64,000 bases of DNA from Tepidisphaeraceae bacterium. Lineage in GTDB: Bacteria; Planctomycetota; Phycisphaerae; Tepidisphaerales; Tepidisphaeraceae. Both the position numbers and the translations under genes were made by a program. Positions 2,935 to 58,940 of this stretch are shown in pieces (position 1 is the stretch's first letter; each line of letters opens with the position of its first letter). Where the stretch lies: NCBI GenBank assembly GCA_035998445.1, contig DASYHQ010000045.1, positions 62,001 through 126,000 on the forward strand, given 5' to 3'. The notes below the pieces were generated by a model. The model was not told where the DNA came from, searched no databases, and was given only the letters and a program-made list of their open reading frames with translations.

Positions 2935-3039
2935 TGTCATCCCGAAGGTAGCCTAAGGCGACCTGAGGGATCTCAAATGACGAGCGTCGCTGATACTGGG
3001 AGATCCCTCAGGTCGCCTTAGGCTCCCATCGGGATGACA
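2935..3039. repeat. Foldback repeat element (TGTCATCCCGA family)
   Basis: A 105-base inverted repeat. The outer arms are TGTCATCCC (2935-2943) and GGGATGACA (3031-3039). The inner arms at 2950-2973 and 3001-3024 are a perfect 24-bp inverted repeat. A related element with the same TGTCATCCCGA ends and the shared core GAGATCCCTCAGGTCGC lies inside the MITE at 40056-40216. No coding capacity. It may fold in RNA in the leader of the isomerase gene. Confidence 0.85.
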
Positions 3040-3748: not shown

Positions 3749-3948
3749 GACAAACACGCTTTCTACGGGCAACTACCGGCCCGCTCAAAACTTGCGACGC
3801 GACGGAAAACGCTCCACCGACTGACTCGCGTTGCCCGGAATCATGGTTTTGAGGCATGAAACCGAGATGGCCATAACGGCCATGGGGCGAACAGTATACG
3901 AAATCGCAGGATTGGATCAAGGTCGTCCCGGCCCCGGGCCAGCTCCTC

Positions 3949-4016
3949 TTCTGTAGGACAGGCATTCCTGCCTGTCTCTCCCCCCCCGTCTGACTCTCCC
4001 CCGTATTGTCGAAAAC
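3949..4016. repeat. Dispersed repeat, inverted partner of 4259-4322
   Basis: About 65 bases (from TCTTCTGTAGGACAGGCATT to CCCCCGTATT) that recur in inverted orientation at 4259-4322. Inside is a hairpin ACAGGCA-TTCC-TGCCTGT (3958-3975) next to a run of Cs. Partial copies are at 1910-1990. Non-coding; the region 3749-4354 contains no gene. Confidence 0.8.
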
Positions 4017-4258: not shown

Positions 4259-4322
4259 GAATACGGGGGGGGGAAAAGCAGACGGGGGGAGAGACAGGCA
4301 GGAATGCCTGTCCTACAGAAGA
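4259..4322. repeat. Dispersed repeat, inverted partner of 3949-4016
   Basis: Inverted copy of the 3949-4016 unit, with hairpin ACAGGCA-GGAA-TGCCTGT at 4294-4311 and a G-rich stretch at 4263-4290. The two copies bracket the MITE at 4081-4190. Confidence 0.8.
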
Positions 4323-27961: not shown

Positions 27962-29449
27962 CTAGTAGGTGTTGAGGCCCGACGTGAACGTCGCCCCGTC
28001 GGCCAATCCGGCGAACGTGCCCGTGAGCAGGTTGGGCGTGTCGATGATCGTGAACGCGTCGCCGACCAGCAGCGACCCGGCGCTGGCGATCACGAGCGAT
28101 GCCGTCTCGCCGAGCGCTACCGAACCGGTGCTATGGAGTTGGCCGAACGTGAAGGAGGACAGCAGGTCGACCTTGAAGACGCCGTCCAAGAGAACGGACG
28201 CCACGTCGAGCGTGCCACCACCGTCACCGGGGCGCAGGTTGGCGCCGGCGGCAATCGTGATCGGCGCCGCGATCGCGCCGGTGCCACCGAGCGTGCCGCC
28301 GGTCTCCACGGTGTAGCCCGTGGGGTTCGGGATGGGATGGTTCGCGTTGACGAGCAGCGTGCCTGCGGTGACGGTCGTCGAACCGCGCCAGATGCTGTTG
28401 GTGTTGATCCGGACGGCGCCGTCGCCAACCTTGACGAGGTTGATCCCACCGTAGATGCCGCCGACGTTGACGCCCGCGTAGAACGCTGCGTTCGGGTCGT
28501 TGGCATCGACGTTGATGTTGCCGCTGCCGCCGATCTCCAGGTCCATGTTGTGCGTGGGCTGACCGCCCTCGTTGGCGACGATGCCGCCGGTCAGCGTCAG
28601 CGTGCTGGTGGCGTTGTCGTTGCGCAGGCGGGCCCGGTCCGACTCACCGGGCGTCTCGCGGACGTCGCGGCCGAGGATGATGCGCTGGTCGGTCGTGGTG
28701 GTGCCACCGGTGTAGACCAGCGCGCCGTTCAGGTGCGATGCGCTGGTCGTGCGGCTGACCTGAATCTGGCCAAAACGTGCGCCCGTGCCAGCCGCGCTGG
28801 CCAGACCGATGTTGCGCAGCGACGCCAGCTCGATCGTACCGTCGGCGGCCACGAGCTGGCCGCTGAACGTGTTGTCGGCGAGCAGCCGCAGCGTGCCACC
28901 ACCACGCTTAGTGATGGCCCTGCGTACACCGCTGCCCTGGATCGGCGCTTCGACCGCCAGCACGCCCGACCCGCTGATGCGCCAGGTGTGCTCATCGTTG
29001 GCCTGCAGCTCGATCGCCCCGCCGTTGATCGCGCTGATCGTGTGGCTGCCCGACGACATCGACAGCGTCTCAGCACCGTTGGTGACCGCGTTGAAGTCCA
29101 GGCGACCCCCGCTCGTGCCATCGATCACGATGTTCAGCGGGCCGGCGATGTTGCCGTTCAAGTTGAGGTTGGACGCGTTGGGGTTGTGACCATTCTTGAT
29201 CGCTATGGTCGAGATGGCCGCGTCGTACCCGGGATCGACGAGGTTGAACTGGTGCGCCCCGCCGTTGCCCGGCGTGTAAACGCCCCCGGCCCAGTTCGCC
29301 TGGCTGGCGCCGGTGCTCCAGACTCCGTCGCCGGCGGCGCCGGTCCAGGTGAAGGTGTCGGCGGAGGCTTGCGAGCCCAGGCCGAGCACGACGATGGCGG
29401 CGGCGGTGGCGCGGCGAACGATGGCTGAACGGTGGTGATGATCGAGCAT
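27962..29449 (-). CDS. Autotransporter-like beta-helix exoprotein, truncated before PEP-CTERM
   Basis: 495 residues from ATG 29449, preceded by GGAGAGAAG. A signal peptide covers about residues 1-30 (AAAIVVLGLGSQASA). The body is a Gly/Asn/Thr-rich right-handed beta-helix of the autotransporter-associated repeat type: TFTWTGAAGDGVWSTGASQA at the start, GGGTLRLLADNTFSG and VKVGDGAVRINTNSIW mid-way, and GGTLGGTGAIAAPITIAAG near the end. The reading frame stops at TAG just before the PEP-CTERM tail, so as written the product lacks its sorting anchor and might be released. It lies between a broken LacI gene and a pseudopilin gene. Confidence 0.85.
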   Translation of the reverse strand: MLDHHHRSAIVRRATAAAIVVLGLGSQASADTFTWTGAAGDGVWSTGASQANWAGGVYTPGNGGAHQFNLVDPGYDAAISTIAIKNGHNPNASNLNLNGNIAGPLNIVIDGTSGGRLDFNAVTNGAETLSMSSGSHTISAINGGAIELQANDEHTWRISGSGVLAVEAPIQGSGVRRAITKRGGGTLRLLADNTFSGQLVAADGTIELASLRNIGLASAAGTGARFGQIQVSRTTSASHLNGALVYTGGTTTTDQRIILGRDVRETPGESDRARLRNDNATSTLTLTGGIVANEGGQPTHNMDLEIGGSGNINVDANDPNAAFYAGVNVGGIYGGINLVKVGDGAVRINTNSIWRGSTTVTAGTLLVNANHPIPNPTGYTVETGGTLGGTGAIAAPITIAAGANLRPGDGGGTLDVASVLLDGVFKVDLLSSFTFGQLHSTGSVALGETASLVIASAGSLLVGDAFTIIDTPNLLTGTFAGLADGATFTSGLNTY

Positions 29450-39365: not shown

Positions 39366-40055
39366 ATGGTCGAGCTATCCCCTGACGAGGCCCGGATCCT
39401 GGGCGTGCTGATCGAGAAGGCGTTCACGACGCCCGAGCTTTACCCGCTGACGCTGAACGCGATCGTCAACGGGTGCAACCAGCGGAATAACCGCGATCCG
39501 GTCACGGCCATCACCGAGGACGCGGCTCGCGCGGCCCTGGAGGACCTCAAGGGGATCGGGCTCGTGGCGCAGGTCGACCAGATGGGCGCCCGCGTCCCCA
39601 AGTACCGGCACCGCGGCCCGGAGGCGCTGCACGTCGGGCCAGCGTTCCAAGCGGTGCTGGCCGAGCTCCTGCTGCGCGGCCCGCAGACGCTCGGCGAGAT
39701 CCGCACGCGCGCGTCGCGCATGGTGCCGATCGACTCGCTGGAGGCGACCGGTGAAATCGTCCGGACCCTGTGCGAGCGCGACGAGCCGTACGCGGGCCGG
39801 TTGCCCCCGATCGCCGGCTCGCGGGCCGAGCGGTACGTCCAGCTCCTCTGTCCCGACCTGCACGGTGCCGCAGTGGCGAGCGGCGAGGCTGCGGCGGGAT
39901 CCGACACGATCACCGAGGTTACGACCGACGATGCGCCGATGACCCGATCGGCTCTGGCCCAGCGTGTGACGGCGTTGGAGGCAGAAGTGCGTGCGCTGCG
40001 CGTGGCTCTGGCAACGCTGGCGGCCGCCGTGGGCGAACCCGACCCGATGGCCTAA
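39366..40055 (+). CDS. YceH family protein (UPF0502/DUF480)
   Basis: 229 residues from ATG 39366. It begins MVELSPDEARILGVLIEKAF and TTPELYPLTLNAIVNGCNQR, the diagnostic YceH opening, and forms two winged-helix domains (about 1-85 and 90-175). A C-terminal coiled coil follows (ALAQRVTALEAEVRALRVAL). Function unknown; winged helices suggest nucleic-acid or protein binding. The stop codon TAA (40053-40055) is also the left target-site copy of the MITE that starts at 40056, so the insertion lies exactly at the gene end. Confidence 0.93.
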   Translation: MVELSPDEARILGVLIEKAFTTPELYPLTLNAIVNGCNQRNNRDPVTAITEDAARAALEDLKGIGLVAQVDQMGARVPKYRHRGPEALHVGPAFQAVLAELLLRGPQTLGEIRTRASRMVPIDSLEATGEIVRTLCERDEPYAGRLPPIAGSRAERYVQLLCPDLHGAAVASGEAAAGSDTITEVTTDDAPMTRSALAQRVTALEAEVRALRVALATLAAAVGEPDPMA

Positions 40056-40216
40056 AGGCTAGCGGACAAAACCTCAGCCCAATGTGCTATTTGTCATCCC
40101 GACCCTAGCGGTAGCGACCCGACCCATCTCCCATGGCCACGAACCGTCAGCCGGTCGAGATCCCTCAGGTCGCTACCGCTCCTTTCGGGATGACATGAGG
40201 TTTTGTCCGCTAGCCT
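40056..40216. mobile_element. MITE-like foldback element with TAA target duplication
   Basis: 161 bp with perfect 21-bp terminal inverted repeats at 40056-40076 and 40196-40216 (starting AGGCTAGCGG), flanked by TAA at 40053-40055 and 40217-40219. Inside are further inverted pairs: TGTCATCCCGA (40092-40102) with TCGGGATGACA (40185-40195), and AGCGGTAGCGACC (40107-40119) with GGTCGCTACCGCT (40168-40180). The inner part is related to the foldback at 2935-3039. No coding capacity. A 3-bp TNA duplication is known for some IS5-related elements, a possible source of transposase. 40220-40409 holds nothing recognised. Confidence 0.8.
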
Positions 40217-40409
40217 TAAGCGTGGCGCACGCGGCTCAACGTAACGGCCAGTTCACTACGTCGTCCGACCATCCGAGGATTCGGCTACGTCTCCAACAGC
40301 GTCCTCCGCAAGTGCGCGCTGTGTGAATCGCGCATTGCTTTTCGTTTTTCGCACCCTAATATCATCTCCTTGCGTTGCCTGAGTTAGAATCGGTCAATGG
40401 GAGGCAAGA

Positions 40410-44390: not shown

Positions 44391-47300
44391 CTAAACGATG
44401 CTCCCCACAGGCGGGCTGAGGACCAGCCGGGTGATGCGGTCGTCCTCCGGGTTGCCGCGGGTGTCGCGGGCGAAGTTGCTGTTGCCCGGTTGTGGGTCGC
44501 GCGGGGCGCCGGTGTTCTGACGCCACTGCGGGTCCTTCTGGGTGTACAAACCCAGTTCGCCGGTCGGCTCGGCCAGCGTTTGGTCGGCACCGGCCTCCTT
44601 GCCCAGCGCCAGCAGGAACGCCTGCACCTGCGGCGAGGGCGAGCGGGAGACCGTCGGCTCGCCAAAGGCGCTGAAGGGGACGAGGTAGCTGTTGAACTCG
44701 CCGGACCAGTCGTACAAACGGTCGGCCCCGGTGTTGGCGATCAGCACGTCCAGCCCGTCGCCGCCGTAGACGAAGTCGGCATCGGCGAACGCCGGCGCGT
44801 CGGGACGATTGTTCAATCCACCGGCGGTGTCGTGGTTGTCGTCGGCGTTCATCACGTCGTCGCCCTGGCCACCGAAGAGGCGGTCGTTGCCCGTGCCGCC
44901 GACGAGCCAGTCGTGGCCCCAATCGCCGAAGATGCGGTCCTTGCCGTCATTCACCTTGACGCCCTGCGCGTCGATCGCGTCGAAGTTCAGCAGGAAGCCG
45001 TCGATCCGCCGCATCGGGTTGTTCGCGTCGTACGCCGCCAGCTTGCGGGTCGACGCGTTGTAGCCCAGCACGTTGAAGTTGCTGACGGGCAGCGTGTTGT
45101 AGAACGCCGCCGTCGCCTCGGCGCCGCTGACGGCGTCGTCGCCAAAGCCGGCGTGGAGGAAGTCGTCGCCAAGGCCGCCGTAGATCACGTCGTTGCCGCC
45201 CTTGGTCACGGCCAGCAGCTTCACGGTCTTCTGCAGTCGGCCATTGATGTAGCCCCAGAACCCGGTCGCTGGGCCGGCTTCGGAGTAGTAGGTCTCCTTG
45301 GTCGCCGTGGTGACGCCGCTGAGCGTCTCGGTGAGCCCGTTGCGGCTGGTGAGGACGATGCCGTCGTCACCGATCACACCGTCCTCGCCGTTGCCACCGT
45401 AGATGCGGTCGTGGCCGGCGCCACCGATCAGGTCATCGTCCTGACCGCCGCCGAACAGCACGTCGTTGCCGGCTTGACCGAGGATCGTGTCGTCGCCCGC
45501 CTCGCCGTGCAGCAGGTCGTTGCCACCGATGTCGCTTGCCGCCCCACCGGCGGTGTAATCGACGCTCTGCACGCCGCGGACGACGATGCCGAGCGACGCG
45601 TAACGGTCGTAGTTGAAGTGGAGGAAGCGCCCGTCGTTGCCGATCAGGCGGAAGATGTTGCCGTTGTCGCCAAGGATGACGTCGGCGTCATCGGCGTGAC
45701 CATTGGCGGAGGTGTCGCCGGCATTGTAACGGTCGAGTTGCGTGCCCGAGCCACCGTAGATCGTGTCGTTGCCGTCGGGCCGCTGGGCGGCGATCGTCAG
45801 GCCGTACAGCGACGAGCTGCCACCGATCAGGTCGTCCTGGCCGCCATTGCCGTAGATCACGTCGGCGCCGCCGTTGCCCTCGATGTAGTCGTGCCCGTCG
45901 GTCGCCGCGCTGGCCGGTGCCACGCCGAGCACGCCGTCGCCTTGAAGGACGTCATTGCCCATTTGGCCGAAGATCTTGTCGTCACCCGCGCCGCCAGCGA
46001 TGGAATCGTTGCCGCTCGTGCCGGAGGCCACGGTCGTTGAATGGTCGAACAGCGTGAACGTGCGTTCCAGCGCGGCGCGTGGGTCGAGCTGGGGCGCGGT
46101 CGTGACGTTCGGAGCGCCAGTGGCGTTGTAGAGCGTCGCGCTGCTGAGCTTGCGGATGCGGGTGCTGAGGGCGCTGGCGTTGCGGACGATCTGCGCGTTG
46201 TCGCCGGCGATCGCATCATTGCCGGCGCCGCCGTCGATGGAGTCGCCCGCGTCGCTGCCACCGGCCACGTTGTGACCGCCGATGATGTCGTCGTCGCCCG
46301 CGCCACCGCGGATCGTGTCGGCGCCCTGTTGGCCGAGCAGGATGTCGGCACCGTCGTTGCCGTCGATCACGTCATCGTTGCCCAGCGCAGCAGCGGTGTC
46401 GGTCGACGTTAGCGTGAACGACATGTTGCCGGTGCTGACGGGCAGCGTCGCCGCGTCGATGGCGCCGGTGAGCATGCCGTGGTCGCCGAACACCAGGTCG
46501 TTGTCGGCCCCACCGGCGATGGTATCCCGGCCGTTGCCACCGAGGACGATATCGTTGCCTGCGCCGGCCACGACCGTGTCATTGCCGCCGAGCGTGGGGT
46601 CGATCGTGTATATCTTCGACGCGAGGCGCTCGACGCCGTCGGTACGGTCTGCCGGGACGTTCGGCGTGACGGCGGGCGCGTCGCCCGCACCACCGATGAT
46701 GGTGCCAGCGCCGAACTCAGTGCGGCCGGTATCGGCGATGATGACGTCGGCAGCAGCGCCGCCGGTGATCGTATCGCTACCCAGGCCACCGAACAGGTAC
46801 AGAGACCGCGTGGAAGCGGCGCCGTTCAGCACATCGTCGCCCGATTGGCCGTTGGCGACGAAGAAGCCGTCGGTCGCGCCAAGGTTAATCGTGGCCGTGT
46901 CGTTGCCGGCCCCCGTGTTCAGCGTGGTAATCGTGCGCCCGCCGGCGGTGTTTAGCGTACTGCTGACGGTGGCGTTGTCGGCACCTTGGCCCGCCCACAC
47001 GGTAATGCCACCGAAGAAGTTGCCGGCGGCGACGTAGGTGATGTCGCTAGGTGCCAGACCGGTAATCGACGAACGCGTCAGGACGACGCTGGCGTCTCCC
47101 GCGGTGGCCGTCGAGTCGCTGACCATCAGCGTCTGGGTACCTGCCCCGCCATTGATGTTCAAGTTGGCCGCAAGGTCGTTCAAGTTGCCGAACAGGTAAG
47201 CCGGAGTCTCGCCAGCCTGCACGTTGGCCGAGTTGGCGACGTAGATGCGGTCATTGCCGCCATTCGTATTCAGGTTGGTAACGGCCGACGTGCCGCGCAC

Positions 47301-50300
47301 GTTGAACACGTCGCCGGCCGATCCGGCGTCAATGTTCAGCGTCTCCAGGGCCGCGTAACTGATGACGGCCGGGCTTAGGCCCGACAGCGTCGTCTGCGTC
47401 AGTACGCCCACGGTGATGGCAGTCTCGGCGCGGTCGTCGACGTTCATCATGTCGGCGCCGCCTTGCCCATCCACCAACAGCGTTGCGGCGATCGCGTTCA
47501 CCGTGCCACCCACGGCCGGGGCGAGGCTACCGACGTTGATCACGTCGTCGCCGGCGCCACCGAGTACCACGGTCGGCGTCTTCGCATGAATGCTACGAAT
47601 GTTGAGCGTGTCGTTGCCGCTGCCGAGGCGGACGTCGAGCGATTCGAACGTGGCATAGGCGATGCCGGATGCTCCCATGCCCAGACCCGTGACGGCCGTG
47701 GCGGTGACCATGCCCGTGTTCGCGGCGGTGTCGCCGGTGTCGTCGATCAGCAGCGAGTCACTGTCGGCCGTCGCATCCTGGTTCGATCCACCCGCCAGCG
47801 ACACGACGCCCTGGATCTTGTTCACCGTGCCGCCGAGGACGGGGGCCAGGCTGCCGACGATGAACGTGTCGTTGCCTTCGTTGCCGGTTGCGCTAAGCGC
47901 CATCGTGCCAAGCACGCCGCGGATGTTGAACGCGTCGGCACCGAAGTTGCCTTCCAGGTCAATCTTCTGCACTTCGCTGGTGGTGACAGCGTTACCGAGG
48001 CGGTCGACGGTCATGTCGACGTCGAACGTGTCGTTACCGCGCTTGCCGCGCCCAAGGATCGCCTCGACGCCGGTGAAGCTCGCCTCGCGGCTGCCGACGA
48101 CTGTGATGGAATCGGCCGTGACGACGAGGTGATCGTCCAGCAGCGAGCCGTTGACGATCAGCGTGTCGAAGCCTTCCCCGCCGTTGATGATGACCGGCGC
48201 GTTGGCCAAATACTGAATGAGATCCGCGCCGACGCCACCGGTGACGGTGGAGGTGCCGACGTTGTCGACGGCGGTGTTCAGTTCGAACGTATCATCGCCG
48301 TTGTCACCGTTGAGGGTGAGTTCGGCCTTGTTGCGGTTGACGAGGAAGTAGTCGTTGCCCTCACCGCCGTTGAGAGTGGTGGCGAGGCTGACGCCCGCGA
48401 TGTCGGCACCCTTGGTGGGCACGCCATCAATAACGTCATCCTGCACGAAGCCGTCTTCATCCAGCACCGGCCCGATGCGGAAGCGATCGGCACCGTTGCC
48501 GGCGTCGACGTTGACCTTCGCGCCGGTGTCGACGAGCACCATGCTGTCGTCACCCGCACCCAGCATGATGTTCAGCTGTTCGGCGGTGCCGTAGGTCAGC
48601 AGACCGCCGGTGCCGAAGAGGCCGCTCAGCGTGACCTTGGTCAGCAGCGCGGTGTCGCCGGTGGTGTCGGCGCGGTCGTCGACGTTGATGGTGTCGTTCC
48701 CGTCCTCGCCGTTGATCGTCAGCCCGGCGGTGATGGTATCGACGGTGCCGAACGCGGTCGTGCCGGCGTAGGAGCCGACGTTGATCGTGTCGGCATCGCT
48801 GCCGGCATTGATCGTGGTCTGTGCGGCTAAGCCGCGGAAATTAATCGTGTCGTTGCCGGCGAGCGTGCGCACGACCGTCTGGTTGCCGGCGGCCACGTTG
48901 GCCACGGTCACCGTATCGGCGTCAGCGTTGGTCTCGATCAGCGTGCTGGCTGCGTTGACCGCGCCCAGCACGTTTATCTTGGCACCCACACCTGCATCGG
49001 CGTTTCCATAGTCGGCCAGCAGCGTGACGGTGGTCGCCGCCTGAACCGTAGCCCCGGCGGTGATCGTGAGGTCGTCGCCGCTGCGTAGCGTGACGGCCGC
49101 ACCTGTCGAGCGAACGGTCGCGCCGGACGTGATCGTCAGGTCGTCGCCGGCCGTGGCGGCGTCGGTCGTCGTCAGCGTGATGTCGCCGGTAGCGTTCACG
49201 TTCTCGTTGACCGTCAAGGGGCTCTTGGTCGTGATCTGAGCCACGCCGGCCGACGTGACGCCAACCATGCTGCTCGCGCCACCGATCGCCAATGCGCCAG
49301 TGTTGACGACGAACAGCCCGCCCGAGCCAACGTTGGCCTCCAGCTTGGCAACGCTCGTCTCGATCGCGTCAGCGGCGGTGCCAAGGGACGGAGCGTCGGT
49401 GACAACCAGCGCCGCGGCGGTGATGTCGACCGCGTTCGCGTCGGCATCGTCAAGTATGCCCGCGGCGCCCTTCAGTGTGACCGTGCCGCCCGTGGTGATG
49501 GCATCGATCGTGAGATCGCCGGCGGCTTCGCTTACCAAGATGTTGCCCGTGGCTGTCACCTTCAGCTTGCCGGCGGCCGCATTGGCGGTGTTGATGCCCA
49601 GCGGCTGGGTGGCCGTGCCAACGGTGGCCGCGTTCAGCGTGACGCTGTTACCCGTCACGTCGGCCGCGAGGTCGGCGCTGGCTTCAACGATGCCCGCCGT
49701 GCTGGTCAACGTGACGTTGCCTGCGGTGCTGGTGATGTTCCCTGCGCGTAGGTCGCCGGTCGTCTCGCTGAGGTAGATGTCGGCCGGTGTCGACGCGTCG
49801 ATCGCTCCGTTGCCGACGTTCGTGCGAACGGCCTGCGTGGTGCTGCCGATCGCGCCGGTCGCGACGAGGTTGATGTTCTGCCCAGCGACGACGTGTGTGT
49901 TGTTCCCGCCGACGATTGCGCCGGCGTTGTTGCGAAGCGTGGTCGTGCCGTTCGTGCTGCTGATCGATTCGGCCAACGTCAGCGCCGAGGTGCTGGTGTT
50001 GGTTACGTTGACGTTCCCATTGGCCGTGATCGTACGCAGGTCCCAAGCCGCCGACGCGCTGTGCTCGGTGGCGGCCAGGATCGTGTAGGAAATTGAGATG
50101 TTGCCGTACGTGAACGTCTTGGCAACGGGCGCGATGACGATGCCCGTGCCACCGCCGAGCGTGAGGTCGACGTTCCCGCCCGCCGAGATGCTCTTGATGA
50201 TCGACTTGTCGTCGAACGAGTACGCGCCACCGGCCAGCGTGACGTTCTCGCTGCCCTGCCGCGTAAGGGACAGCGCGACGTTTCCACCGGCCGTGGCAGT

Positions 50301-53300
50301 GATGGAACCGTCCTCAGTGCGGAGGTTGATCGGCAGCGCGGTCGTGCCAATATTGCCGGCGTCAGCGGTGAGGATGAAGTCGTCGCTGCCGACGAACTTG
50401 CCGTTCGACTGGCTGATGTTGCCACCCTTGTTGCGAATGGTGCTGACGCCGGTCGGGTTGGAGATGTCGCCGGTCAAACGGACGTCGGTCGCCTTGTCGT
50501 TGTAGATGTTCAGCGCGGCCGGCGCCGTGCTGCCGAGGTCGGTGTTGTAGGTGTGGTCGTTGCTGGCCGTGAAGGTGAGGGCGGGCTCGGGCGCGCCGCT
50601 GCCCTGGAAGTCGATGTCGCCGATGACGAAGTTCTTGTTCGAGTAGTTCTTCAGGTCGACCAGATCGAGCGAGCGGTCGAGGTAGATCGTCCCCGCACCG
50701 CTGAGCGTGCCGCCGCCGGCGTTGGTGCTGGCGACGAAGCTGGCGGTGCCGCCGTTGTCGTTGAAGATGTCATCGACGATGACGTCGCTGCCGCCCACGG
50801 TCGCGCCCACGTTGCTGTCGGCGGCGATGGTGCCGTCGGCGTTCACCGTCAGCTTCTTCTCCGATTCGCTGGTGACGTACAGCCCGCCGTCGAAGGCGAT
50901 GTTGGCCAAGTCGGTGATGACGCCGGGGCTCTGCTCGTTGGTGCTTTCGACCTTCAGGGCCTTGGTGACGGCCGAGACGATCCAGCCGATGATCGGGATG
51001 CTTTCGACGACGTTCTGGACCGTGTAGGCCGTGGCGTCGGAATCCTTAACGTACGTGTTGGCGGCGTAGCTGGTGAGCGCGGCGGCCTTGGTGTACAGCT
51101 TCGCGCCGCTCTTGACGTTCACGTCGGTGTGGGCGTTGATCGTGTTGTCCGCTGTGGTGCGGGCGCGGCCCGAGAAGCCGACGACCTGCGACTTCGCCTG
51201 CGTGTTGGCGTCGGAATTGTTCTGCCGGGCTTCGATCGTCAGCGTAGCCTTACCGGTGACGGTGGCGCCGCTGTTGATCTCGACCAGTGCATCGGTGTTC
51301 AGGCTGATCTTGCTGTTCGAACCGGCCGACGAGTCGGCCGCGTAGGTGTTGGTGTCGGTGATCGCGTCGGCTTCCATGTGCGGCGCGACGGCCTGCAGGT
51401 AGACGTTCTGGCCGCTGATCTTGGCGTCGGCGCCAACGCGCACGACGGCGTCGGAGTTGATGTAGATATCGGCCGTGCTGTCGGCATAGCTGGCGAGGCC
51501 GCCGGCGTCCATGTCGGTTTCGGCCCGGGTGTGGGCTTCAGTGATGGCCTTGATCGTCACCGTCGTACCGGCGGTGACCACGGCGCGGGCACCCACGGCC
51601 GCCAGCACATCGTTGTTCAGATCGAGGTCGGCCGTCGTGTTGGAGCCGCTGACGACTCCACCGGCGCCGGAGTCGACGAAGATGTTCCCCTTGTTCCAGG
51701 TGTCGGCCAGCACGGTGACCGCGCCATTGGCCTTCAACGATGCGTCGGCGGCGATGGTGGCATGTGCGTGGGCGGTGATGCGAACGTAGGCGGCATTGAT
51801 GCCCGCGGCGAGGGCGCCGTAGGTGTCGCCGTCGGACGTGGCGTTGGCGTACGTATCGGACTCGGCCTTAACTGTCGCGCTGCCACCGACGGTGAGCGTG
51901 GCGTCTCCAATGGTGGCGTCGAGCGTCGGGTTGCTGGTGGCCGTGGCCGTTGCGCCGTTGCCGCCGACGAGCCCACCGACCGCGCTGGTGGCGTCGGACG
52001 TGGCGTTGGCGATCTGTTGGCTCGACGCATTGTTGACCGGCTTATTGATGGCCTGAACGGTCAGGTTGCCGCCGGTGCTCATCGTGACGTTGTTGCCGAT
52101 GGCTGCCTGTAAGGTCGGGCTGGCATTGGCGCTGCCGATGCTGACGCCAACGCTGATGCCACCGATGTTGATGCCGTAGGCGTCGCCGCGTGCGTAAGCT
52201 GCGGCCTCGGATTGGACGGTTGCGCCGCCAGTGGTATGAACGATGGCACTATTGCCGATCGTTGCGCGCGACTGTGGCGTCGAACTGGCGCTGCTGTCGG
52301 CACCGCTGCCCGACACGATGCCACCGACCGCGGCCGTCGCGTCCGACTGAACGAGCGCGGTGGCGTTCGACTTCACCTCGACGCTGCCGACGGTGCTTGT
52401 CGTGCTCTGGGTGCTGTTGACGCGGGCGTTGCCGCCGAGCGTTGCGACGGCCGAGCCGTTCTCGATCGCATTGCTGATGACGACGCCGACCGCGCCTGCA
52501 CCCACTGCCGCGCCGGTGGCGCTGGCGTGGTTGTCGGATGACGTGGTCGCATTGACCGCGAGCGAACTGGCGCGGGTGACCGCACCATCCAGCGAAGCGG
52601 TAGCGTTGGTGGTGCTGTTGAGCTTCGACACCGCCGCGCCCAAGCCTACAACGCCGGCCGCGCCGGCGAGAGACCTGGCGTCGGAATCGTTGAGCTTGCC
52701 GGTGGCCAGGACGTTGACCGCTCCGCCAGCGTCGATCGATGAACCCGTGGCGACCGTCGCAGTGGCCGACGGCTTCACCGAGCCGATTGCGACCGACCCG
52801 CCAATGCCGAGCAGACCGCCCGCGGCAGCGCCGGCGAGCTGCTTGAGTTGCACCGTATCGTCGGCGGTGACGTTGACCGCCCCACCGGCGACGATCGTCG
52901 CGCTGGTGCCGATGCTCGCGGTCACGCTGCCGGTGGCCGGCGTCGTGCTGAGCGGGGTTGCGACGCTGACCTTCGACGTCTCGCCGCTCGCCTTGGCCTT
53001 GGCCACTGCGACGAACGACTCGCTGCCGTAATCGCCGCCAAGTTGGTTCGTGCTGCTTTGGCTGTTCAGTTCGCTCGTGGCATTGCTGCCACCCTTGCCG
53101 TTGACGGCCGACAACGCCTCGCCGCTGAGCGTACCGCCGATGTATACCACGCTGACCGCGCCCTGCACGCCCACGAGTCCGCCGCCGGCGGCGACGGTGA
53201 TGATGTTCACGCTCTTCGTGCCGTCCGCGTCGACGGTGACGTTCCCACCCGCGCTAACGGCGGTACCACCACCGATGACGGCCGCGGTGGAATTCTTGAT

Positions 53301-56300
53301 CGTCGTCACGTCGACCGACGCGCCAGCGCCCAGTACGCCGCTGCCGGAGATCGCGCCAATCTTCGACTCGATGGTCGTGTTATCGACGGCCTGCACGTTC
53401 ACGTGCTGGCTGGCAGCCTTGTACGAGGGCGTCTGATTGACGGCAGTGGTGCCGGTGAGCTCTTCAATCTTGGCGGTCGTCGTGTTCGACACCGAGTTCA
53501 CGCTGGTCGTGCCGGCAATGCCCACGTAAAGGCCGCCCGCCGCGGCGGCGCCGTAGCTGACGACGTCGGTGAACTGGTCGGCCTTCACGGTGGTGGTGCC
53601 GCTGGCGTCGGTGCTGCTGTCGGTAATGCGGGCAATCGTGGTATTGTCGATAAGGTTAACGAGGACGGTACCGCCCACGCCGCCGCCGACTTTACCGATG
53701 CCGATCGAGCCGGCCAGGATGCCGGTGACCGTGCCATCGGCCTGCTTACCGAAGACGACCTCGTCGTCGGCCATCACGGTGAGGTTCCCGCCAGCCTTAA
53801 CCGTCGACCTGTCGATGGCCGCTTCGTTGGTGGTGTCGACCTTCACGACCGACACGCTGCCGGCCAAGCCGACGGTGAGCGAGCCACCGCCGCTGACGAC
53901 GATGTTGTTCAGGCGTTCGCGGGTGTTGCTGATTGCCTCGACCGTGCCGAAGGCGGTGACGGTGCTGCTGGTGATCTTGGCCGCGGTGTCGCTGGTGTCG
54001 ATCACGGTGCCGGCGGTCGCGCCGATGCCCGCAATGCCACCCAAAGCCAAGCCACCGGCCTTGGAATCGAGATCGGCCTTGCTGAGGGCGCGAACGCGGG
54101 TGCCCGTGGCGGCGTTACCACCGTCGCGATTGGCGTTGACGGTCGAGCCGCTGATCTCGGCCAGGGTCGTATCATCCCGCAGCGTGACGGCCGCGGTGCC
54201 GGCGATGCCGACCTTGATGCCGCCCGAGACGTTGCCGAGCCAGACGTCCACCTCGGCGGTGTCGGTGGCGACCACGCTCAGGCCGCGCACGTTATCCGTC
54301 AGGCCGCTGCCGTCGGCACGAGGGATGGCGGTTTCGGCCAGGCCCTTGCTGTTGATGGTGCTGTCCTGAACGAGCGCCTTGGTGGTGTTGCCGATCGTGT
54401 TGATCGCCGCCGTCGCGCCGACGCCAGCCACGCCGCCACCGGCGAGCACGCCACCGTAGAAGGTGATGTCGCTGTCGGTGTTGGCCAGTACGTTGACGTT
54501 GTCCTGGGCGGTGACGGTGGTGTTCTTAATCGTCGCTTGTGTGTCGTTGGCGATCAGGTTGACCGCGACCGAGCCGGCGACGCCGACCGTACCGAAGGAG
54601 ACCGAGCCGCTGACGGCGATGGTCTTGATTTCGCCGGTGGTGCCCGCCGAGACGGTGACGGAACTCGTATCGCTGGTGACGGTGCCACCATCGATGGTGG
54701 CGTAGGCCTTATCGGCGATGTCGTTGTACGCCGCTGCCGCGCCGACGGCGACGGTGCCGGCGCTGAACGCGACCTGGCCGGCGAGGGATTCGATCGTCGA
54801 ATCGTCCGTGGCGGTGACGCTGATCGCGTTGCCGGCGACCAGCTTGGAACCGCCATTGACGTGGGCGTCGGCCGTCGTGCGAATCCTGTTCAGCGAGAGC
54901 GAACCGCCGTACGCCGAATTGGCGGCGGCGCTGACGCCGGCCGAGATGGACTGGATCGTCGCGTCGTTCTTCGCGGTGATGCTCGTCGCGCCCGTTGCGT
55001 TGACGTCGGCGGCCGACTCGAGGCCGGCGGTGGTCGCGCCGCTGATATCGTTCCACGCGCCCGAACCACCGACGCCGGCGTTGCCAAAGTTGACGGCAAG
55101 GTTGCCGGCGAGGCTCTTGATGACGCCGGTGTTGGTGGCGTTCAACGTCACGTCACCCGTCGCATCGACGCCGGCGGCGGTTTTCTTGCCGCTGATGACG
55201 GCGACGGTCCCCTGGCGGATTTCGTTCAGGGTAAGGGCGGCCGCGCCGGCCATGTTGCCAAGGCTGGCACCGATGGCGGCGGCGATGGCCTGGATCTCGC
55301 TATCGCTTGTCGACGTCACGTCGAGCTTGCCGGCAGAGTTCAGATCGCTGCCCTCGATCGACGCCTTCGTGTCGGTGCCGATCTCGTTATATGCGATCGA
55401 CGCGCCGATGCCCGCCATGCCGCCGAACGCGATCGCGCCGGCGACGGCGACGATCTGCGAATCGTCCTTGGCGGTGATGACCGTCGCGCCGCTGGCGGTC
55501 GTGGAGACCGACGAGCTGCCGCTCACGCTGGCGGTGGTGTCGTTGTCGATCAGGTTGACCGACACCGAGCCCGCAAGCCCGACGCCGTTGCCGGCGACCG
55601 AGCCACCGACGCCGGCGCTGATGGCGAGGATATCGCTCAACTGTTCCGCGTTGACCGTCAGCGCACCGGCCGCCGATAGCCCGGAATTGTTGATGGCTGC
55701 GGTGGTGACGGAGGTCACGTCGTTCATCGAGTACGCGCCGGCGATGCCCGCCGAGTTCGCGCCCGAGGCCGCGATGGCGACGCCACCGGTGACGGTCCGC
55801 ATCGTGACGTTGTCACGGGCGATGATGCGCGTTGCGCCACCGGCGGTGACTGCGGCGTCCTGAACCAGGGCCTTGGTGGTGTCGTCGATCAGGTTAACCG
55901 CAGCGGCGCCGGAGACGCCGATGCCGTACTTGCCGCCGCCCTTCTTGCCTTCCTTCTTCTCGGACTCGGTGGCGTCTTTGTTCACGAACGTGGCGGCAAT
56001 CGCATGCGTATCGAACGTGCCGGTGTTGGCCGCCAGCACGCCCAGACGGCCACCGGTGGTGAGCGAGCCGGTCGCCTCGTTCGTTTCGCCGATGTTGTTG
56101 CCAACGATGGCCTTGGTCTGGCGGTCCACATCGGTGATGACGGCGGTGAAGCCGACGCCGACGCTTTCACCCTTGGCGATGCCGCCGCCAATGTTGAAGA
56201 CGCTCGACGCATCCTCGGCCGCCACGATCACGTTCAAGTCCGTCTCGTATTCGGTCGCGGTGACGGCCGTAATCGACTCGTCGGCCGTGGTAACCTGCCC

Positions 56301-58940
56301 GTCGCCGTTGGAATCGAACGAGAGCGGGACGCGGTCTCCGTCGCGGTGCAGCTTGAGGAGCGTCGTGCCCGTGGTGACGACCGCGCCGTCGTCGATCTTT
56401 GCGATCGATTCGTTATTGATATCGACGAGCCCGAACGACCCGTAGACGGCGTAATCGCCACCTTTACCGCCGCTCTCGGCGATCGAGATATTCCGCGAGG
56501 TGGAGTACGACCGCACCAACAGTCCGCTGGCGTACAAGGTTGCGCCCGACTTAATGACGGCGGCGGCGTGGTTGTCCTGCGTCACCTGAAGGTACGACCC
56601 GCCGACGCCCGCTTTACTGCCACCGGCGTTCAAAATCTTCACGCCGAACACGCCCGACAGGTTCAGGTCCTGAATGTCATTCTTGGCCGTCACGGCAACG
56701 ACCTGCGTTGGTCCGCGGTAGGCGGCCTTCTGGTTCACCTGCGCGCCGGTGTCGATGTAGGCGTCGGCGTCGTTCGTGTACTTCACGAAGTTGATCGAGC
56801 CGGCGATGCCGGTCTTATCGCCCTCGGCGTTCGACTGGGCCCACGAGGTGAAGAACCCGTTCTGCAGGCCAAGGTTCGAGTTCAGCTTGTCGAGAACATC
56901 GCCGACGCCCTTAATCTGGGCCCACTGAATCTCGTACGGCTGGACGATGCTGGCGTTCACCGCCACCCGGCCCTTGGCGTCCACAACGGCGTTGGAGCCG
57001 ATGTACGCCTCGGAGTCGTTCTTGAAGATCGCGATGTTGATGGCGGCGCTGACCGAGTTTTCCTTCGTGTTGCCACTGGTGGGCTGCTTTGCCACGATGG
57101 CGGCGGAATCGACGGTGCTGGTGGCGCTGGTCTCGGGGACGAACACGAGCGTGCTGTCGACGACCACGTCGCCGTTCTTGGCAAGCACGGTGGCACCGGT
57201 GCCGACGCGGGCGACGGAGGTGTTCGTGTCTCCCGCGTACGTGAACGCGGCCGACACGGCCAGTTTCTTGGCGCCGCCAGCTTGGGGCTTCTGGTCAGGC
57301 TGCTTTTTGCTGATGAACGACGTCACGCCGGAGGAGGCGCCCTTCACGCCCAGGACGATGCGCGCGCCCAGGCCCGAGCCGGCGCCGCTGACCGAGCTAG
57401 TGTCGTTCCGCACGGTCTGGCTTTCGGCCAGCACATGAACGTTCTGCCCCGCCGTGGCGGCGCCGTCCATCTTGGCGGCGTTCTCACTCGTCGACAGGCT
57501 GACGGCCACCGCGACGCCGAACGTACCGTCCTCGTATGCGCCGGCGCTGGCGCCCGTGTTGTGATCCTTCCGGACCTTCGCCTTCACCGTGACGCTGCCG
57601 TTGTCCGAGTTCAATGATGCACCGGCGGCGACCGTCGCGGTCGACTTGATATCGGCGTCGCTGACGGCAATCGTGATGCTCTGCTCGGCGCTGCTCTTTG
57701 CCGCGCCGAGCAAGCCGCGCTTTGCGCTGACGGAGACGGTGCTGTCGGCAATCGTGTTCAGCGACAGGTTGCCGCTGGCCGTCAGCGTGGCGCCGTTCTG
57801 CACGTCGATGCGGGCGGTCGGCTTCGACTGCCCGAACGCGAACGCGAGCTGTTTCTCGCGGGCGGTCGTAAGGATGCGGGCTTCGGTCTGGGCGCCCGAC
57901 TGCACGTCTATGACCGAGCCGACGATGTTCGAACCCGTCCCGATGGTGATGAGCGACGTCGACCTCGCGATCGATAGTCCGATGAACGCGCTGATGCCTT
58001 CAAGCACCTCCGGCGTTGCGAAATCGCCCGAGGGGTTCTCGGCATCAAGGTTGTACTCGTCGCTGGTGTCGTTGAAGTCGGCGTCGGTGGTCGCGGTGCT
58101 GTAGACCTTCACGACGCCGCCCTTCACGGTGGCGTTGGTGATCGTGATGCCGCTGTCGGCGACCTTGATCCACTGGCGCGCCGAGAAGTATCCATTGTCG
58201 ACCGAGTCGTCGCCGACGATGTCAATCGAGCCTGCGGTGAACGTGCCGGTCGATTGCGCGAAGACGGCGCTGCCACTGGTGAGCGTGAGGTATTGGCCGC
58301 GCAGGTTGACGTTGCCGCTGTTTCCCACCGACGCACCGTTGGCGTGATCGGATCCATTGCCAATGTTTCGGGTAGAGATGAAGTGCGTGCCGGCGAGGCC
58401 GAAGTTGCCCTCTGTCGTCAGGCTGACGTTGCCGCCGTTGGATACGACGTTGCCATCGACGCTGACGTCGCCCTCGGCCTTCACGGTGAAGTTGCCCCCG
58501 CCCGTGGCGAGCGACTGGATGCGCAGCATGCCGTCGAACTTGCCGTCGATGGTTACGCCACCGGCGAGGCTGAGCGAGTTGATGCCCCCTGCTGACGCGT
58601 CCAGGTCCGCCGACCAGCTGGCGCCGTCCGTGCTGTACTCCAGCAGCCCACCGGCCGACCGCAGGTAGATGTCCGACGAAGCGCCGGAGTTGTCGAATGT
58701 GACGGTCGTGCCGCTTAACGCGGGCACCACGGACAGCAGCCGCCGCTCCTCGAGCGTCTCGAACGGGTCGCTATGGCGCGCAACGGCCAGGGCGGGGCCA
58801 TGGCCCATCAGCATGCGGCACAGAGCGTCGTGCGCCCGTGCACGATCACGGCAGATGCGAAGGATGGCCTGGTGACGGAGAAACTTCCACGCAGAGGACG
58901 CGTATTCGCGCACAGATATCCTTCGCCGGCCTTGGCCCAC
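44391..58940 (-). CDS. Giant LEPR-XLL exoprotein, adhesin-like with RTX-type repeats
   Basis: 4,849 codons in one uninterrupted frame. The start is taken as the GTG at 58940 (AGAGG 5 bases upstream); ATGs at 58814 and 58808 are alternatives. LEERRLLS at residues ~63-70 is the planctomycete export motif. Residues ~230-2680 are long repeats of the LktA/filamentous-adhesin kind (SITAKNDATIQSISAGVS, GIAGSVSVNLI-like), with an EF-hand-like DSNGDGQVTTADE at ~875-890. Residues ~2680-4080 are beta-solenoid (AGNVTLTSTAGI; DADTINVGSYAG). Residues ~4110-4715 are RTX-type nonapeptides (GGAGNDRIYGGNG-like; GGTGNDRLFGGQGDD), expected to fold with calcium. No cysteine was seen after the first ~42 residues. 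No secretion partner is adjacent. Confidence 0.9.
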   Translation of the reverse strand: MGQGRRRISVREYASSAWKFLRHQAILRICRDRARAHDALCRMLMGHGPALAVARHSDPFETLEERRLLSVVPALSGTTVTFDNSGASSDIYLRSAGGLLEYSTDGASWSADLDASAGGINSLSLAGGVTIDGKFDGMLRIQSLATGGGNFTVKAEGDVSVDGNVVSNGGNVSLTTEGNFGLAGTHFISTRNIGNGSDHANGASVGNSGNVNLRGQYLTLTSGSAVFAQSTGTFTAGSIDIVGDDSVDNGYFSARQWIKVADSGITITNATVKGGVVKVYSTATTDADFNDTSDEYNLDAENPSGDFATPEVLEGISAFIGLSIARSTSLITIGTGSNIVGSVIDVQSGAQTEARILTTAREKQLAFAFGQSKPTARIDVQNGATLTASGNLSLNTIADSTVSVSAKRGLLGAAKSSAEQSITIAVSDADIKSTATVAAGASLNSDNGSVTVKAKVRKDHNTGASAGAYEDGTFGVAVAVSLSTSENAAKMDGAATAGQNVHVLAESQTVRNDTSSVSGAGSGLGARIVLGVKGASSGVTSFISKKQPDQKPQAGGAKKLAVSAAFTYAGDTNTSVARVGTGATVLAKNGDVVVDSTLVFVPETSATSTVDSAAIVAKQPTSGNTKENSVSAAINIAIFKNDSEAYIGSNAVVDAKGRVAVNASIVQPYEIQWAQIKGVGDVLDKLNSNLGLQNGFFTSWAQSNAEGDKTGIAGSINFVKYTNDADAYIDTGAQVNQKAAYRGPTQVVAVTAKNDIQDLNLSGVFGVKILNAGGSKAGVGGSYLQVTQDNHAAAVIKSGATLYASGLLVRSYSTSRNISIAESGGKGGDYAVYGSFGLVDINNESIAKIDDGAVVTTGTTLLKLHRDGDRVPLSFDSNGDGQVTTADESITAVTATEYETDLNVIVAAEDASSVFNIGGGIAKGESVGVGFTAVITDVDRQTKAIVGNNIGETNEATGSLTTGGRLGVLAANTGTFDTHAIAATFVNKDATESEKKEGKKGGGKYGIGVSGAAAVNLIDDTTKALVQDAAVTAGGATRIIARDNVTMRTVTGGVAIAASGANSAGIAGAYSMNDVTSVTTAAINNSGLSAAGALTVNAEQLSDILAISAGVGGSVAGNGVGLAGSVSVNLIDNDTTASVSGSSSVSTTASGATVITAKDDSQIVAVAGAIAFGGMAGIGASIAYNEIGTDTKASIEGSDLNSAGKLDVTSTSDSEIQAIAAAIGASLGNMAGAAALTLNEIRQGTVAVISGKKTAAGVDATGDVTLNATNTGVIKSLAGNLAVNFGNAGVGGSGAWNDISGATTAGLESAADVNATGATSITAKNDATIQSISAGVSAAANSAYGGSLSLNRIRTTADAHVNGGSKLVAGNAISVTATDDSTIESLAGQVAFSAGTVAVGAAAAYNDIADKAYATIDGGTVTSDTSSVTVSAGTTGEIKTIAVSGSVSFGTVGVAGSVAVNLIANDTQATIKNTTVTAQDNVNVLANTDSDITFYGGVLAGGGVAGVGATAAINTIGNTTKALVQDSTINSKGLAETAIPRADGSGLTDNVRGLSVVATDTAEVDVWLGNVSGGIKVGIAGTAAVTLRDDTTLAEISGSTVNANRDGGNAATGTRVRALSKADLDSKAGGLALGGIAGIGATAGTVIDTSDTAAKITSSTVTAFGTVEAISNTRERLNNIVVSGGGSLTVGLAGSVSVVKVDTTNEAAIDRSTVKAGGNLTVMADDEVVFGKQADGTVTGILAGSIGIGKVGGGVGGTVLVNLIDNTTIARITDSSTDASGTTTVKADQFTDVVSYGAAAAGGLYVGIAGTTSVNSVSNTTTAKIEELTGTTAVNQTPSYKAASQHVNVQAVDNTTIESKIGAISGSGVLGAGASVDVTTIKNSTAAVIGGGTAVSAGGNVTVDADGTKSVNIITVAAGGGLVGVQGAVSVVYIGGTLSGEALSAVNGKGGSNATSELNSQSSTNQLGGDYGSESFVAVAKAKASGETSKVSVATPLSTTPATGSVTASIGTSATIVAGGAVNVTADDTVQLKQLAGAAAGGLLGIGGSVAIGSVKPSATATVATGSSIDAGGAVNVLATGKLNDSDARSLAGAAGVVGLGAAVSKLNSTTNATASLDGAVTRASSLAVNATTSSDNHASATGAAVGAGAVGVVISNAIENGSAVATLGGNARVNSTQSTTSTVGSVEVKSNATALVQSDATAAVGGIVSGSGADSSASSTPQSRATIGNSAIVHTTGGATVQSEAAAYARGDAYGINIGGISVGVSIGSANASPTLQAAIGNNVTMSTGGNLTVQAINKPVNNASSQQIANATSDATSAVGGLVGGNGATATATSNPTLDATIGDATLTVGGSATVKAESDTYANATSDGDTYGALAAGINAAYVRITAHAHATIAADASLKANGAVTVLADTWNKGNIFVDSGAGGVVSGSNTTADLDLNNDVLAAVGARAVVTAGTTVTIKAITEAHTRAETDMDAGGLASYADSTADIYINSDAVVRVGADAKISGQNVYLQAVAPHMEADAITDTNTYAADSSAGSNSKISLNTDALVEINSGATVTGKATLTIEARQNNSDANTQAKSQVVGFSGRARTTADNTINAHTDVNVKSGAKLYTKAAALTSYAANTYVKDSDATAYTVQNVVESIPIIGWIVSAVTKALKVESTNEQSPGVITDLANIAFDGGLYVTSESEKKLTVNADGTIAADSNVGATVGGSDVIVDDIFNDNGGTASFVASTNAGGGTLSGAGTIYLDRSLDLVDLKNYSNKNFVIGDIDFQGSGAPEPALTFTASNDHTYNTDLGSTAPAALNIYNDKATDVRLTGDISNPTGVSTIRNKGGNISQSNGKFVGSDDFILTADAGNIGTTALPINLRTEDGSITATAGGNVALSLTRQGSENVTLAGGAYSFDDKSIIKSISAGGNVDLTLGGGTGIVIAPVAKTFTYGNISISYTILAATEHSASAAWDLRTITANGNVNVTNTSTSALTLAESISSTNGTTTLRNNAGAIVGGNNTHVVAGQNINLVATGAIGSTTQAVRTNVGNGAIDASTPADIYLSETTGDLRAGNITSTAGNVTLTSTAGIVEASADLAADVTGNSVTLNAATVGTATQPLGINTANAAAGKLKVTATGNILVSEAAGDLTIDAITTGGTVTLKGAAGILDDADANAVDITAAALVVTDAPSLGTAADAIETSVAKLEANVGSGGLFVVNTGALAIGGASSMVGVTSAGVAQITTKSPLTVNENVNATGDITLTTTDAATAGDDLTITSGATVRSTGAAVTLRSGDDLTITAGATVQAATTVTLLADYGNADAGVGAKINVLGAVNAASTLIETNADADTVTVANVAAGNQTVVRTLAGNDTINFRGLAAQTTINAGSDADTINVGSYAGTTAFGTVDTITAGLTINGEDGNDTINVDDRADTTGDTALLTKVTLSGLFGTGGLLTYGTAEQLNIMLGAGDDSMVLVDTGAKVNVDAGNGADRFRIGPVLDEDGFVQDDVIDGVPTKGADIAGVSLATTLNGGEGNDYFLVNRNKAELTLNGDNGDDTFELNTAVDNVGTSTVTGGVGADLIQYLANAPVIINGGEGFDTLIVNGSLLDDHLVVTADSITVVGSREASFTGVEAILGRGKRGNDTFDVDMTVDRLGNAVTTSEVQKIDLEGNFGADAFNIRGVLGTMALSATGNEGNDTFIVGSLAPVLGGTVNKIQGVVSLAGGSNQDATADSDSLLIDDTGDTAANTGMVTATAVTGLGMGASGIAYATFESLDVRLGSGNDTLNIRSIHAKTPTVVLGGAGDDVINVGSLAPAVGGTVNAIAATLLVDGQGGADMMNVDDRAETAITVGVLTQTTLSGLSPAVISYAALETLNIDAGSAGDVFNVRGTSAVTNLNTNGGNDRIYVANSANVQAGETPAYLFGNLNDLAANLNINGGAGTQTLMVSDSTATAGDASVVLTRSSITGLAPSDITYVAAGNFFGGITVWAGQGADNATVSSTLNTAGGRTITTLNTGAGNDTATINLGATDGFFVANGQSGDDVLNGAASTRSLYLFGGLGSDTITGGAAADVIIADTGRTEFGAGTIIGGAGDAPAVTPNVPADRTDGVERLASKIYTIDPTLGGNDTVVAGAGNDIVLGGNGRDTIAGGADNDLVFGDHGMLTGAIDAATLPVSTGNMSFTLTSTDTAAALGNDDVIDGNDGADILLGQQGADTIRGGAGDDDIIGGHNVAGGSDAGDSIDGGAGNDAIAGDNAQIVRNASALSTRIRKLSSATLYNATGAPNVTTAPQLDPRAALERTFTLFDHSTTVASGTSGNDSIAGGAGDDKIFGQMGNDVLQGDGVLGVAPASAATDGHDYIEGNGGADVIYGNGGQDDLIGGSSSLYGLTIAAQRPDGNDTIYGGSGTQLDRYNAGDTSANGHADDADVILGDNGNIFRLIGNDGRFLHFNYDRYASLGIVVRGVQSVDYTAGGAASDIGGNDLLHGEAGDDTILGQAGNDVLFGGGQDDDLIGGAGHDRIYGGNGEDGVIGDDGIVLTSRNGLTETLSGVTTATKETYYSEAGPATGFWGYINGRLQKTVKLLAVTKGGNDVIYGGLGDDFLHAGFGDDAVSGAEATAAFYNTLPVSNFNVLGYNASTRKLAAYDANNPMRRIDGFLLNFDAIDAQGVKVNDGKDRIFGDWGHDWLVGGTGNDRLFGGQGDDVMNADDNHDTAGGLNNRPDAPAFADADFVYGGDGLDVLIANTGADRLYDWSGEFNSYLVPFSAFGEPTVSRSPSPQVQAFLLALGKEAGADQTLAEPTGELGLYTQKDPQWRQNTGAPRDPQPGNSNFARDTRGNPEDDRITRLVLSPPVGSIV

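Follow-up and report, generated by a model that had tools for sequence, protein, structure and literature searches.

A probable miniature transposable element built around a REP-like dimer, inserted at the stop codon of yceH in a Tepidisphaeraceae bacterium

Introduction

How did a palindromic element come to lie exactly at the end of a gene, and does that gene make use of it? The question is raised by the 3' end of yceH in a Tepidisphaeraceae bacterium (genome of 5.84 Mb in 64 contigs). The locus lies in a 64-kb window, the whole stretch of DNA that was analysed, for which a first-pass annotation had proposed a MITE inserted at the yceH stop codon with duplication of the TAA target, the hairpin perhaps serving as a terminator of the gene.

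Results

Anatomy of the element at yceH

Features are given in window coordinates; the two REP dimers are listed without strand.

39366–40055, plus strand: yceH (DUF480); stop TAA at 40053–40055, ORF open from 39276
40053–40055, plus strand: left TAA, stop codon of yceH and left copy of the target duplication
40056–40076, plus strand: left 21-bp terminal inverted repeat, AGGCTAGCGGACAAAACCTCA
40077–40091, plus strand: left spacer, subfamily c, GCCCAATGTGCTATT
40092–40195, no strand: internal REP-dimer hairpin core, TGTCATCCCGA...TCGGGATGACA; the unit is also free-standing at many other places
40196–40216, minus strand: right 21-bp terminal inverted repeat, abutting the core directly
40217–40219, plus strand: right TAA, second copy of the target duplication
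2935–3039, no strand: free-standing REP dimer without outer repeats; unoccupied target GCCTWAGGC in both arms

The element proper spans 161 bp (40056–40216) and, with one TAA on each side, occupies 40053–40219, exactly the interval first annotated. Complementarity between 40056–40076 and 40196–40216 is perfect over the 21 bp that had been claimed, and the junctions read GATGGCC-TAA, followed by the element (AGGCTAGCGGACAAAACCTCA ... TGAGGTTTTGTCCGCTAGCCT), followed by TAA-GCGTGG. The left TAA is indeed the stop codon of yceH, being the in-frame stop of an ORF with a Pfam DUF480 match (E 1.4e-49); the element sits exactly on this codon and leaves the YceH protein unchanged, as the annotation had it. 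The outer arms surround a 104-bp REP-dimer hairpin core, itself made of two inverted arms of ~40 nt flanking a variable loop, and the composite folds as a single strand at -99.6 kcal/mol (z = -14), far beyond chance. Short (161 bp), non-coding and bounded by 21-bp terminal inverted repeats (TIRs), it has the form of a MITE.

Family size and distribution

A DNA search of the genome gave 101 matches at about 40 distinct places; the 18-bp end occurred 107 times at three mismatches or fewer, against 3 times for the reversed control. Counted at six mismatches or fewer, 141 end candidates had the core inside, and the 132 retained at five or fewer fall in 82 loci. Many dispersed copies, here at about 82 loci, are a further mark of a MITE. 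The nearest siblings of the window copy are only 84–90% identical, so that no sign of a recent burst is seen.

At two mismatches the end was found 71 times in the host genome and as single stray matches in 3 of 60 relatives. Across 84,980 species genomes the 18-bp end had 11 matches, one per contig and in unrelated phyla, which look like chance, about this number being expected for 18 bases. The near-absence from relatives, together with the chance level elsewhere, indicates a family confined to the host lineage within the collections searched. The element is missing at the yceH 3' ends of the nine relatives compared; their YceH proteins are 40–57% identical, and an empty yceH site is not available from any close genome. 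A match of the element to Rfam MIR918 was sub-threshold (29 bits; cut-off 268) and was set aside as a palindrome artefact.

REP-like core and spacers

The genome contains ~460–470 close variants of the core end, and most of 20 sampled core sites lacked the outer repeat; the core is therefore a REP-like dimer family in its own right. Related hairpins (TGTCATCCCGAGCGCAGCCGAGGGATCT...) are present in three relatives (G012, G017, G021). CGTC-tagged REPs are defined by a terminal CGTC or TGTC tag followed by AT and by a stem of 8–9 bp with a loop of 4–5 nt (PMC3733652). The core starts with TGTCAT and thus carries the tag; its arm TGTCATCCCGATGGGAGCC forms a stem, as judged by eye, of only ~4–5 bp (TCCC-GAT-GGGA), too short for that class, and the core is therefore named REP-like here.

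The spacers between end and core are of few types, most copies pairing a with b, c with d (the window copy) or c with e after misread spacers had been re-sorted by eye. Some mixed pairs look like products of recombination through the core. Free mixing of arm subfamilies was considered and dropped, as the corrected spacers are mostly a/b, c/d and c/e with few recombinants.

Other repeats were seen. A further palindromic unit containing GTGCATAACACGCTCTAG lies at L125 601-769 and G000:C13:106607-106981, and apparently also inside one element copy. The window holds a perfect 39-bp inverted repeat of a different family (3947-3985 and 4284-4322, 298 nt apart; partial copies at 1959-1995 and 4268-4304) and, on the minus strand, a 4849-aa ORF rich in internal direct repeats (44391-58940).

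Target site, duplication and nesting

The consensus of the flanks, read towards the element, is GCC-T-W-A (C at -4 in 109, T at -3 in 95 and A at -1 in 113 of the 141 ends); it persists when ends inside REPs are excluded, and the insertion preference is GCC-TWA-GGC. The duplication of TAA stands for the yceH copy. Family-wide, an exact 3-bp TWA duplication was kept in only 9 of 39 paired copies (shuffle mean 5.6, p = 0.065), a count in which the outermost left end was picked by hand for five pairs (two left ends and one right at a locus); without these choices it was 7 of 39 (shuffle mean 6.0, p = 0.37). The next triplet outward, taken as control, matched in 2 of 39 pairs. Where TWA was present on both sides (n = 11), nine pairs were direct and two inverted. 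The low rate of exact duplications probably means that most copies are old and degraded.

What appears to be stronger evidence for target duplication than these pair counts comes from copies nested in REPs, where in several cases an intact arm reappears once the flanks are joined through a single TWA. The TAA/TAA flanks tgtcatcccgaacggagccTAA and TAAggcgacgagagggatctcg at C61:37787-37945 and the TTA/TTA flanks at C59:24466-24644 each join to a REP arm with 2–3 mismatches in 36. Copies lacking a TAA duplication, which the annotation had named as evidence against its reading, are thus numerous as far as exact triplets go, while the restored arms support duplication; with the dispersed copies, the TIRs and the TWA target, they bear out the MITE identity.

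Ends located in REP arms number 45 of 132. Perfect GCCTWAGGC occurs at only 67 sites genome-wide, and the REP-arm motif GGAGCCTWAGGCGAC (43 sites) accounts for most of them among the matches listed; since the remaining targets are mostly in REP arms, the element often nests in the REP family that it carries. Neither the REP-like dimer within the element nor this nesting had been noted in the annotation. At G000:C50:29303-29499 two element copies stand back to back, the second beginning inside the TTA at the end of the first.

Landing at stop codons

Nine element ends lie directly after the stop of a coding-like ORF (6 TAA, 3 TGA). Pfam matches back eight of these genes: yceH; a sodium:sulfate symporter; a short-chain dehydrogenase; a ThiF-rhodanese protein; a LacI-type periplasmic-binding-domain protein; a class III aminotransferase; a zinc alcohol dehydrogenase; and an ABC ATPase that resembles PstB in its C-terminus, TEDYITGRFG. 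The ninth ORF (on C55) is without a Pfam match.

Within the 64-kb window, 13 of 117 non-coding TWA sites are TAA stops (11%); for the 28 non-nested loci with TWA, ~3 TAA stops are predicted and 6 were seen (p = 0.08). When TGA/TCA sites are included, target availability gives ~3.3 expected stop-abutting loci against the nine seen, a figure obtained by hand arithmetic, its null resting on a single 64-kb window in which genes were called with a home-made tool. Landing at stop codons recurs, yet it is a minority outcome with at most a 2–3 fold excess, which could result from the target sequence together with selection against insertions that hit promoters and genes. Most copies lie away from stops, so the position is no rule of the family. 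The annotation was right about yceH, and eight further copies share its situation; the genes ending at the element, which it had suggested be listed, have TGA as well as TAA stops, and copies not at stop codons, which it would have taken as contrary evidence, are the majority.

Search for the mover

An autonomous partner was sought in four transposase families (PF01609, Y1_Tnp, PF13359, PF13586). None of the transposases at the PF01609 and Y1_Tnp loci of the genome has the ends of the element; PF13359 is absent from the genome, and the PF13586 matches add no new locus. The partner may have been lost or may be missing from the assembly; a lost or unassembled IS5/IS1031-like transposase is presumably the best fit to the 3-bp TWA duplication. 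An IS5-type insertion sequence of ~0.9 kb, TA-flanked and with ends (A)GAGCCTGTTTCACAACC, is present at L126 1087-1997; its ends are unrelated to those of the element.

Discussion

We consider it probable that the element is a non-autonomous DNA transposon (MITE) with 18–21-bp ends, AGGCTAGCGGACAAAACC, around a REP-dimer hairpin, a reading that brings together the ends, the family, the target consensus, the nesting and the stop-codon position. The ends would have been recognised in trans by a DDE-type transposase, itself no longer present or not recognised as such, which would have cut a palindromic target resembling GCC-TWA-GGC with a 3-bp stagger, so that TWA was duplicated. At yceH the target would have been the stop codon in GGCC-TAA-GCG, and the stop was kept and the protein left unchanged because target duplication would have restored TAA; the TWA target and selection would together account for this position. 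Insertion into other REPs and element copies would produce nested, recombined arrays, and would be frequent because the arms of the carried REP family contain GCCTAAGGC. More doubtful, though possible, is the broader proposal that the composite, in mobilising REP dimers, carries its own preferred landing site, such that insertions seed new GCC-TWA-GGC targets and drive self-nesting, and TWA/TNA specificity gives harmless stop-codon landing above chance.

The outer arms might instead be a pre-existing dispersed palindrome that served as target for REP-dimer insertion, and not transposon ends, an origin that has been proposed for the REP dimers found within palindromes of Anabaena variabilis and Halothiobacillus neapolitanus. 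Nearly all outer ends have a REP core attached, REP cores are far more numerous than outer ends, and the architecture is like that of those cases (Di Nocera 2013, PMC3733652), all of which would suit such an origin. No outer palindrome lacking a core was seen, however, and TWA sites and REP arms harbour the whole composite; it thus appears to have moved as a unit, which makes the origin by REP insertion quite improbable. That the mover was a RAYT (Y1 transposase), carrying a REPIN-like element, and not a DDE enzyme, seems to us very unlikely: the genome has eight Y1_Tnp matches, and one Y1 (RAYT-like) gene lies ~1 kb from a perfect-ended element copy (G000:C56:27353-27592 and 28572-28753), but seven of the eight loci have neither core nor outer end nearby, and Y1 enzymes do not, to our knowledge, normally make target duplications.

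Whether mobile by a DDE enzyme or otherwise, the insertion might have been retained at yceH for an effect on the mRNA, its hairpin acting as a terminator, as the first-pass annotation proposed, or as a 3'-end stabiliser. The hairpin is very stable and immediately 3' of the stop, and the excess of stop-abutting copies would fit such a role. An intrinsic terminator is a GC-rich hairpin followed by a U-tract, yet no U-tract follows the element hairpin, and no terminator-like site was called within the element, the one weak site lying downstream at 40320-40334; the sequence thus lends the proposed terminator little support. TIR mismatches average the same within a copy as between copies (4.31 vs 4.31), no compensatory change was found between the two ends of each copy, and with complementarity no higher within copies there is no sign of selection on end pairing. 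As the majority of copies are not at stops either, we judge retention for such a function unlikely; the hairpin could conceivably protect the 3' end.

One mobile unit here joins two classes of small bacterial repeats, MITEs and REP dimers, and provides a concrete, countable case of a target built into the repeat family that an element carries. It also illustrates how stop codons can serve a TWA-specific element as safe sites when the genome is GC-rich and TAA is rare inside genes.

Insertion sequences (ISs) of the IS1031 type in the IS5 family make a 3-bp TNA-type duplication, which the element appears to share; no matching transposase or end sequence was found here. Among the well-known bacterial MITEs are RUP, Correia/NEMIS and similar families (PMC2229807), and the present element resembles them in being <200 bp and non-coding, with perfect TIRs, an A/T target with an apparent short duplication and many dispersed copies; like RUP, it also inserts in other mobile elements (PMC2229807). 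It differs in apparently duplicating 3-bp TWA and not TA, in being GC-rich, in carrying a REP dimer and in that no parental IS was found. REP dimers within longer palindromes are known from A. variabilis (GTAG-15) and H. neapolitanus (CGTC-1) (PMC3733652), likewise within conserved outer palindromic arms; the present composite differs in its defined target (GCC-TWA-GGC) and in inserting into the REP family to which its core belongs. The ISs ISPpu9, ISPa11 and ISPsy8 likewise insert specifically into REPs (PMC1525189), whereas the element described here is non-coding and itself carries the REP family containing the target. No earlier description of its sequence was found in the literature searched, and one may exist elsewhere. 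MITEs and REP dimers are each already known; their composite structure together with self-targeting is an unusual combination.
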